DNA of 64,000 nucleotides from Candidatus Scatonaster coprocaballi (GTDB lineage: Bacteria; Bacillota; Clostridia; Saccharofermentanales; Saccharofermentanaceae): contig JAGHVD010000023.1 in assembly GCA_018064475.1 (NCBI GenBank), positions 1-64,000 of the forward strand, in the 5' to 3' direction. Positions 28,286-31,513 of this stretch are shown piece after piece. The translations under genes and the position numbers were made by a program. The notes under the pieces were generated by a model. The model was not told the origin of the DNA, searched no databases, and saw nothing but the letters and a program-made list of their open reading frames with translations. Within the stretch, counting starts at the first letter, position 1, and every line of letters begins with the position of its first letter.

Positions 28286-29764
28286 TCAAGTAATGTCTTC
28301 ATCCGTGCCGAGTATTCCTTCCGATAAGGAGAGTTCATACCAGCACTCCTCCTGGGACTCGCACTTGTTTCGCGAGTGCTCATCGGTGTAACCGACTGCA
28401 TGAGCAAATCCAGGAATCCAGAGGACTTCATTTCCTACTGCCACCAGAAGTATTCGATCCCGTAATCTTGCCGGAATATGAAGTTCGCTCATATACCGTC
28501 TCAATTCCTTACTGCAGGAAGAACCTGCCCGTCTGAATCGATCTCCTTCTCTTCGGGTGCGTAGGACCGCCCCTTCCAGACATAATTGTGGAAAAAACCA
28601 CGTTGAACCATTATAAACCACGTGGCAATCTTTCTCAATGGAACGAAGTCGGATTTGCAGAAATCTTTGAGAAAAATTAACAGTTTCGCCGATTGGAAGC
28701 GTCGCAAGTTCAATTATCCGTGTTTGCTCCGATTCTGGGACCAGCCAGCCACATGTCGGTTGGAAGCCACAGGCGTTCACGTCGAAAGCCTCCTCACTCG
28801 TGCTAAATGAGAATTGTCCCTGTTCTCGTCTTGCAATTCTCCCGCCGGGCAGGCATAGATACCCTTCTCGTGTTTCTTCCTGAACAAGGGCAAGGATCTG
28901 CCCCCAATGCGTCGACGTGATATCCACCACATCACCGAAAGTCCGAACGGCCAGCAATCGCAAGCATCTACGAAGCATCGGTCGCGGAATATCCTTCAAT
29001 TTCAGTACCGAAACCTCTCCTGCTTCATTGACGATATCGGCTAACTGGCTCTCGGCTAGTGTATCCAAATACTGATTCTCTTCTTCAATTCGAGACGCCA
29101 ACTGTGTCAGCGCACTGATTGGATCACGATCCGTTCCATTCTGAATCGATGGAAAAAGCACCTGCCTCCAGTAGTTGCGGTCATACGTTGCGTCCTCGTT
29201 CGTACGATCCTGGCAGTAGGGAATGTTATGTCTTTCACAGAACGCGAGGATCTCTGCTTTGTGAAGGCCGAGAAACGGACGAATGATCGCGCCGTTTTGT
29301 CGTTGCATCCCCACTAGGCCTTCCATTCCGCAGCCTCGGAAGATATGCATCGCCACGCTCTCCGCCTGATCTTCCATGTGATGGGCCACCGCGATTCGGT
29401 CACCCTCCTGGCAGAGCGAAGCGAAGAACGCATATCTTGCTTCACGTCCCGCACTTTCCAAGCTCTTTTTCTCCTTCTTAGCAAGTTCCGGCACATCCAC
29501 ATGCGTACAGGTGTAAGCGATTTCCAATTTCTCACAGAAGTCACGTACGGTTTTCTCGTCTTGATTAGCTTCTGCGCGGATTCCGTGGTGGACATGGGCT
29601 GCCAGAAGTTCCGTATCTGGATACTCTTTACGAACAATTTCGTGTAAAACAAATAGAAGCGCCATAGAATCGGCGCCTCCAGAGCAACCGACCACGACAC
29701 GCGCGGCCGGAAGCAACTCGTATTGGGCAATATCTTGCTTAACTTTGCAAATCAGATCGTCCAC
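28286..29764 (-). CDS. tilS: tRNA(Ile)-lysidine synthetase
   Basis: 492 residues starting at GTG 29764, immediately after the TAA of the dnaB C-terminal frame; GAAGAG lies about 9 bases before. N-terminal PP-loop ATPase motif SGGADS (28-33), then HHGIRAEANQDE and HHMEDQAESVAMHIFRG, and C-terminal TilS domains (RREGDRFRRAGSSCSKELRRYM). Role: converts cytidine 34 of the CAU-anticodon tRNA-Ile to lysidine so that AUA is read as isoleucine; essential. Sits between dnaB and hpt. Confidence 0.95.
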   Translation of the reverse strand: MDDLICKVKQDIAQYELLPAARVVVGCSGGADSMALLFVLHEIVRKEYPDTELLAAHVHHGIRAEANQDEKTVRDFCEKLEIAYTCTHVDVPELAKKEKKSLESAGREARYAFFASLCQEGDRIAVAHHMEDQAESVAMHIFRGCGMEGLVGMQRQNGAIIRPFLGLHKAEILAFCERHNIPYCQDRTNEDATYDRNYWRQVLFPSIQNGTDRDPISALTQLASRIEEENQYLDTLAESQLADIVNEAGEVSVLKLKDIPRPMLRRCLRLLAVRTFGDVVDITSTHWGQILALVQEETREGYLCLPGGRIARREQGQFSFSTSEEAFDVNACGFQPTCGWLVPESEQTRIIELATLPIGETVNFSQRFLQIRLRSIEKDCHVVYNGSTWFFPQLCLEGAVLRTRREGDRFRRAGSSCSKELRRYMSELHIPARLRDRILLVAVGNEVLWIPGFAHAVGYTDEHSRNKCESQEECWYELSLSEGILGTDEDIT

Positions 29765-30298
29765 TTAGAAATTCTCTTCTCCGAAAGCATCACCTGGGTC
29801 GTGATAGGTATCTTCATCCATTCCTTCTGCCTCCCACGGCATAGCATCCAGCGATTCAAACTCCATACCATTTCCGCGGAAAAGCGCCGGATCATCTTGA
29901 GGAATCGGTGCATCCTGTTCAGATGGCATCGGTACAGCAGCAACCGGTGGTTCATTAGCCGGAGTACTCGGTAGATCCGGTGCAGCAGGTGCAGGAGCAG
30001 GATTCTCGGGAATCGCATAGGATGGTTCAGCGAAAAGATTATCTGGAATATCTATGCCCTGCGAAGCAAACTCCGGCGGTGCATCCAGATCCGAAGGTCC
30101 CTGTGGACGATCCGGGTCATTGTGCTCACTTTCGAAGAATACAGTACGGGAACCATTCCAAGAAAGGTAGATCGTTCTTGTCGGACCTTGACGGTTCTTC
30201 GCCACGATGATCTCCGCCTTCTCGATCTTCTCCTCATCTACCGGAACCGGCTTCTTACTCTCGCTATCCTCTTCAGTCGTCAGTTACGCCTTATTCTT
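29765..30298 (-). pseudogene. dnaB: DnaB C-terminal segment, in frame after two TAA codons
   Basis: This stretch continues the dnaB frame after the TAA at 30299-30301; four codons later a second in-frame TAA occurs (30284-30286). After that the frame is open to 29765. It encodes the conserved DnaB end EKAEIIVAKNRQGPTRTIYLSWNG, split here as EKAEIIVAKNRQGPTRT and IYLSWNG, which holds the Lys/Arg residues that act in trans as the arginine finger. A Pro/Ala-rich and then acidic tail of about 110 residues follows, unusual for DnaB. There is no ATG; a GTG at 30205 has GGCGGAG 6 bases before it and could start a 146-residue peptide. Either a broken gene, a sequence error, or a segment made by read-through or separate initiation. 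Confidence 0.7.
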
Positions 30299-31513
30299 TT
30301 AGTAATCCGGTCGATGGACGAACATAACAATATCGGCATCCTGCTCGATTGCACCGGAGTCACGGAGGTCAGAAAGGATCGGTCGGTGCGTATCACGTTT
30401 CTCCGATTCACGCGACAACTGAGAAAGTGCAATAATCGGAACTTTCAATTCTTTGGCCATCAACTTCAAAGAACGGGAGATCTCGGAGATTTCCTGTTGA
30501 CGGCTCGGATTTGGGCGAACTGCACTCATGAGCTGGAGGTAGTCGATACAGATCAGCCCCAGCTTACGTCCAAGTTTATTCTGTAGTTCACGGCAACGAG
30601 TCAGCATCTCTGCCGGGCTGGTTCCGGAGTGTTCGTCAATGAACAGTGGCGCTTTGCCGAGGAAGGGCAAAGAGCCGTTGATTCGACCAAGTTCATCGTG
30701 AGACAGGTTCTTACCGGATTGCAACGATGATGTAGAAATATCGCACCGTGACGAAAGAATACGGTTCGCAATCTCCTCGCCGCTCATTTCCAAACTGAAG
30801 AATGCAACCGGCAGACCACTCTTGATTGCAACATTTGCGGCGATATTAATGACAAATGCTGATTTACCCATGGAAGGACGTGCAGCAATGATCGTAAGCG
30901 TACCCGGACGGAAACCATTCGTTACCCAGTCAAGCAGAGAGAAATGGCTCATGACCGCCTTCTCTTTCTGCGGAGTAATGAGGTTTTTCACCGTCTGTTC
31001 CAACACCTGTTTCAACGGCGTGAACGTCTCATCGTCTACACCGTGATCTCTCAACTCGGCCAGACGGGCAATTGCAAGTTCAATCAGATTGTGCGGATCG
31101 GTATCGCCCTCGTAGGACATCTGGACGATCTCGTTGATCGACGTGATCAACTTACGATTCATGGATTTCTGGCGGACGATTCGAATATAATCCGTATAGT
31201 TGGAGATCAATGCATGGGCATCCACGATCTCGCTAAGATAAGCCATACCACCGGCTTTCTCCAGATCGCCGTGCTTCTTCAGCGCTTCACCGACCGTGAT
31301 CATGTCGACGTTCTTACTCTCTGCATAGAGATCCTTCATCACCTGGAAGATCAGTTTATGTGCCGGAGAGTAGAAATCATCCGCTTCCAAGACGACCGCA
31401 CTGCCGCCCAAAGCTTCTTTGGAATCCATGCAACACGAAAGCACAGCTACCTCCGCATCGTTATTCTGCGGCGGAACTCGATTCTTTAATAGATTCTCAT
31501 CTGACTGTGCCAT
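30299..31513 (-). CDS. dnaB: Replicative DNA helicase DnaB, interrupted near the C-terminus
   Basis: 404 residues to the first TAA. DnaB N-terminal helical domain (1-110), linker helix, and RecA-like helicase core: Walker A ARPSMGKSA (211-219), Walker B ICIDYLQLM (321-329), H3 IALSQLSRESEKR and H4 SDLRDSGAIEQDADIVMF. Role: hexameric helicase at the replication fork. It stops at HRPDY, where homologues continue (usually with another Tyr) for about 40 more residues containing the arginine finger. Without that segment the ring ATPase should not work, so either the two frames are joined in some way or this copy is dead. It starts with GAGGGGG before the ATG and follows rplI in the usual order. 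Confidence 0.9.
   Translation of the reverse strand: MAQSDENLLKNRVPPQNNDAEVAVLSCCMDSKEALGGSAVVLEADDFYSPAHKLIFQVMKDLYAESKNVDMITVGEALKKHGDLEKAGGMAYLSEIVDAHALISNYTDYIRIVRQKSMNRKLITSINEIVQMSYEGDTDPHNLIELAIARLAELRDHGVDDETFTPLKQVLEQTVKNLITPQKEKAVMSHFSLLDWVTNGFRPGTLTIIAARPSMGKSAFVINIAANVAIKSGLPVAFFSLEMSGEEIANRILSSRCDISTSSLQSGKNLSHDELGRINGSLPFLGKAPLFIDEHSGTSPAEMLTRCRELQNKLGRKLGLICIDYLQLMSAVRPNPSRQQEISEISRSLKLMAKELKVPIIALSQLSRESEKRDTHRPILSDLRDSGAIEQDADIVMFVHRPDY

Follow-up and report, generated by a model that had tools for sequence, protein, structure and literature searches.

The closest described system for the gene analysed here is the replicative helicase DnaB (TIGR00665; PF00772 and PF03796), of which 2r6a is a solved example. 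According to excerpts of a study of RadA/Sms, a DnaB-type helicase of recombination, the KNRFG motif of that protein carries a piston lysine and a finger arginine, and the equivalent K and R act as piston and arginine finger of the neighbouring protomer in modelling on DnaB (PMC5512693). For DnaB of H. pylori, the excerpted text places the R-finger, residues 445N to 451G, between adjacent monomers (PMC6318325). Genes for DnaB that are broken at the sequence level are represented by the intein-interrupted examples of mycobacteria. Several of the literature matches listed concern DnaB inteins, and no stop-interrupted dnaB is described in the titles and abstract openings of these matches.

The window, by which we mean the whole 64,000-nucleotide stretch of DNA that was analysed, contains a dnaB that resembles the described helicase in its two domains, its invariant Walker-type positions and its AKNRQG piston and finger segment, and also in its site between rplI and tilS, hpt and ftsH. 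It differs by two TAA codons in frame, by a longer linker of acidic character and by a tail of about 120 residues at the C-terminus; linker and tail alike are found throughout the genus. Unlike the intein-interrupted genes, it has no insert of intein size compared with relatives, no second gene possessing its own clear start and no split relative in the genus. The features of the locus are as follows.

31513 to 29765, minus strand: the dnaB read-through frame, from translation.
30302..31513, minus strand: upstream part of dnaB, 404 codons, with the N-terminal domain and most of the RecA-like C-terminal domain (Pfam PF00772 and PF03796).
30299..30301, minus strand: first in-frame TAA, residue 405, where relatives have an invariant Tyr (translation and alignment of relatives).
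30284..30286, minus strand: second in-frame TAA, residue 410, in the variable acidic linker (translation and relatives).
29768..30283, minus strand: downstream part of dnaB, with the rest of the linker, the strand pair carrying AKNRQGPTRT (piston Lys, finger Arg) and the C-terminal tail.
30281..30283, minus strand: CTG directly 3' of the second TAA, with UAAGG 5 bases ahead; start-like, and as a start it would retain the whole strand pair.
30203..30205, minus strand: GTG, codon 437, inside predicted strand 431–440; the separate start proposed in the first-pass annotation.
29765..29767, minus strand: TAA that ends the dnaB frame, adjoined by the GTG start of tilS at 29764.

Minus-strand translation gives an upstream product of 404 residues that ends in HRPDY and is followed by the TAA at 30301–30299. 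Four sense codons (AAG AAT AAG GCG) separate this stop from the second one at 30286–30284, so that both TAA codons lie within 18 bases, and beyond them 172 codons are open up to the TAA at 29765–29767. The part downstream of the stops encodes EKAEIIVAKNRQGPTRT. Translation and profile matches thereby confirm the first-pass annotation in its description of two in-frame stops followed by 172 open codons with the conserved K/R segment. Comparison of these 172 codons with relatives revealed no frameshift. At the other end of the frame, the GTG of tilS directly follows the TAA of dnaB (29764–29767). The identical TAA-GTG junction occurs in L011, L016, L017, L019, L020 and L022, and this arrangement suggests a possible translational coupling of dnaB and tilS.

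Profile searches assign the frame to DnaB. With TAA read as Tyr, the read-through frame matches TIGR00665 over its full length at 461.3 bits, above the cut-off of 385.25, and it shares 75% identity with the nearest-relative DnaB (L005) over residues 2–575 of 581. A DnaB is expected to occupy a single uninterrupted reading frame, and in this assembly the frame contains the two TAA codons. The DnaB_C profile is covered from position 2 to 253 of 255 by the read-through frame, and the match spanning both stops, at 309 bits, is above chance. The 404-residue product covers profile positions 2–216 of 255. The 172-residue downstream part by itself covers positions 222–253 with 22.2 bits, and the curated cut-off of 27 is not reached by so short a piece. 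The piston lysine K439 and the finger arginine R441, both invariant in alignment A1 of relatives, are in frame but downstream of the stops, as the first-pass annotation held in describing a 404-residue product devoid of the Lys and Arg of this segment. They align with K418 and R420 of chain 2r6a, where the corresponding segment is matched by the downstream AKNRQG.

A structure was predicted for the read-through form with 44 relatives (mean pLDDT 76.8, pTM 0.57). In this model the stops, at residues 405 and 410, fall inside helix 402–412, ahead of a low-confidence linker at 411–430, and the predicted strands 431–440, 447–453 and 458–460 all come after them. Most residues from about 464 onward, and most of the C-terminal tail, have low confidence. 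Judged by this model, the 404-residue product would be without several strands of the core as well as the arginine finger.

The first-pass annotation had proposed alignment of the same locus in close relatives. With the intact L005 DnaB as the query, 22 of the 23 genus genomes gave a match, the exception being G014, which is 80% complete. None of the 21 other genomes with a match has a stop inside it, and only the window genome does, with its two TAA codons. Among these 21, the proteins of G010 and G016 are identical, and the gene of G004 leaves its contig after the finger segment. In none of them is dnaB split. The class-wide search produced a match in 387 of 391 genomes; no stop was seen among the best-scoring matches listed, which do not include the window genome itself (G000). 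The position of the first stop is a Tyr in all 29 relatives listed (21 from the genus and 8 others) and in all 44 other rows of alignment A1, which come from 44 of 80 loci. The linker with the second stop varies within the genus in both length and sequence. A longer, acidic linker ahead of the finger segment and a C-terminal tail rich in Pro, Ala and acidic residues are traits of DnaB throughout the genus (29768–30298; L004 to L024). The tail, noted earlier as unusual, is indeed so for a DnaB but not for this genus, where it is found generally. The DnaB open frames of the 21 other genomes measure 532–658 residues, whereas the class-wide matches listed are mostly of about 440–470 residues.

Constraint is retained on both sides of the stops. 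Against L004, the finger strand pair has a dN of 0.03 with a dS of 1.7, the head of the gene a dN of 0.125 with a dS of 2.3, and the tail a dN of 0.38 with a dS past estimation; synonymous sites are thus near saturation, so that a recent relaxation would be invisible to dN/dS here. Amino acid changes private to the window lineage relate to those of its nearest relative L004 as 18:9 in the head, 2:0 in the finger segment, 6:4 in the tail and 0:4 in the linker, and the head distance is larger for the window lineage in 18 of 19 comparisons. The same count of private changes against L005 gives 7:3 for rplI and 25:12 for tilS. Because the roughly two-fold excess is common to rplI and tilS, dnaB is not specially relaxed, and the excess looks like a trait of the lineage, not of dnaB. 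The genome of this lineage is among the smallest of those compared in the genus. Signs of a pseudogene, namely decay or relaxed constraint after the break, were not found, and a very recent break would leave none. The lack of decay and the kept constraint mean that the break is very recent, harmless or not real.

The assembly comprises 2.23 Mb in 105 contigs and is 94.31% complete, so about 6% of the genome is missing. A search with PF03796 over the whole assembly returned two places, the window dnaB with its two internal TAA codons and a second locus on C71. The latter is a separate and uninterrupted gene which its zinc motif and KNRFG identify as RadA, and this identification rules it out as a spare replicative DnaB. 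No spare DnaB was thus found in the 94%-complete assembly, and no dnaB copies were present in viral contigs. The window gene is the only DnaB found, as the first-pass annotation had argued in calling it the housekeeping copy. The lack of a second copy in this search speaks against its alternative of a pseudogene accompanied by a spare copy; it had named a complete second dnaB together with decay of the tail frame in relatives as the pattern of a pseudogene, and neither was found, the frames of relatives being open. In G023, which belongs to another genus of the family, two DnaB-like genes occur, on contigs C12 and C23.

The quality of the assembly was examined by looking for comparable breaks elsewhere. 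No stops were found inside the 59 ABC and 11 DEAD domain matches of the genome. Interrupted genes were sought in the window and 20 further stretches, together 457,503 bases or about 20% of the genome. A strict scan, which is blind to broken genes with a chance start codon near the break, yielded 110 coding ORF ends, of which 21 had a coding-like follower, and dnaB alone lacked a start codon within 90 bases. Of candidates listed by coding score, seven were inspected and judged by eye to be shadow frames or separate neighbouring genes. A second interrupted gene of this kind was therefore not found in the 457.5 kb. That the case is isolated speaks against a generally poor assembly, and it is the main point against a simple reading of random error. 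Import from elsewhere in the genome was also considered, but no other match to the 273 bases around the stops covers the stops themselves, and no source for a chimera emerged. A search for a template-switch source gave short imperfect repeats only, among them an 11-base inverted pair (matching at 10 of 11) that touches the first stop. Around the second stop, a test for compensating frameshifts did not clearly favour the neighbouring frames. The two close loci that carry names belong to uncultured Clostridiales assemblies, RUG251, a rumen assembly, and RGIG7838, by its title from water buffalo reticulum. These relatives suggest that the window, too, is metagenome-derived.

In view of the above, the two TAA codons are probably an artefact of local consensus or strain mixing in an ordinary single-copy dnaB of what is probably a metagenome-derived assembly. 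We give this reading a probability of roughly two in three. In bacteria that have been studied dnaB is essential, a second copy was not found, the relatives examined are intact, both sides of the break are constrained, and no clear enabling element was detected; together these points make an artefact the best explanation. The proximity of two stops within 18 bases suggests one local fault and not two independent base errors. The fault would be one of the consensus over about 20 bases, arising for example from low coverage or from a read path that is stray or mixes strains. The cell itself would then carry an open frame and make an ordinary DnaB whose linker and tail are those usual in the genus, and we infer that raw reads would show sense codons. 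Of the four options offered by the first-pass annotation, sequencing or assembly error appears to fit best. Several points weigh against an artefact: a pair of TAA codons so close together is not like scattered base errors; the assembly does not look generally error-rich; no chimera source was found in this genome; and the head of the gene has somewhat more changes than that of the nearest relative, though rplI and tilS behave likewise.

The second-ranked reading is that the sampled strain lost the gene recently, and we consider it unlikely. Here the stops would be a real nonsense variant of that strain or of part of the population, whose cells would be dying, rely on an intact copy located in the 6% of the genome that is missing, or be rescued from elsewhere. 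An undecayed tail and the absence of relaxation specific to dnaB fit a very recent event, and the missing portion leaves room for a copy. The essential nature of dnaB argues against such a loss, as does the finding of one match apiece in the 22 genus genomes that have any; moreover, the two stops would require two events or one complex event.

A split helicase, in which translation stops at the TAA codons and restarts at CTG 30283 or GTG 30205 to give a 404-residue body and a docking tail peptide that completes the ATP site of a neighbour, is doubtful. The break lies at the start of the core-domain loop 411–430, which is long and variable, with low model confidence, and hence a suitable site, and the UAAGG 5 bases ahead of the CTG is a weak hint at most. 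Yet CTG is a poor start codon, and the start signal is weak because, of the 315 internal CTG codons in 21 window frames, 9 likewise have a Shine-Dalgarno-like match of at least 5 bases ahead of them. At least two core β strands would need to come from a separate tail, and none of the 21 other genus genomes has a split gene. The GTG start originally put forward would cut predicted strand 431–440, and its GGAG occurs, at the same spacing ahead of the codon-437 position, in five of the 21 intact relatives (L017, L018, L020, L023, L024). In all five it is simply coding sequence, and in two of them, L017 and L018, that position is likewise a GTG. That the arginine finger and core strands are naturally provided in trans by a free tail peptide, re-initiated right after the double TAA, seems very improbable to us.

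Read-through, with a share of ribosomes decoding both TAA codons as amino acids to produce full-length DnaB, is the least plausible of these mechanisms. It would account for a downstream frame that is kept and constrained, but two TAA codons so near each other would multiply the loss. No supporting element turned up for this earlier suggestion: none of the 39 tRNAs found has the ochre-reading TTA anticodon, in a set that is incomplete and has none labelled Ile or Asn; folding of the RNA around the stops resembles that of shuffled sequence (z −0.09, with 88 of 200 shuffles folding equally well or better); and the window contains no Rfam matches or tRNAs. Programmed bypassing was considered as well, and no structure for it was found. 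Reassignment of TAA can be rejected, as the codon is in normal use as the main terminator, ending 23 of the 42 window frames chosen, with both pieces of dnaB among them, and, as the commonest terminator, 181 of the 352 coding-like frames found in the 457.5 kb.

As it stands, the locus calls for caution, being an isolated pair of stops in one draft genome that is absent from the relatives examined, before a mechanism is proposed. Should both stops prove real and fixed, this organism's only replicative helicase would work in two pieces or through the reading of two ochre codons, which would be remarkable.
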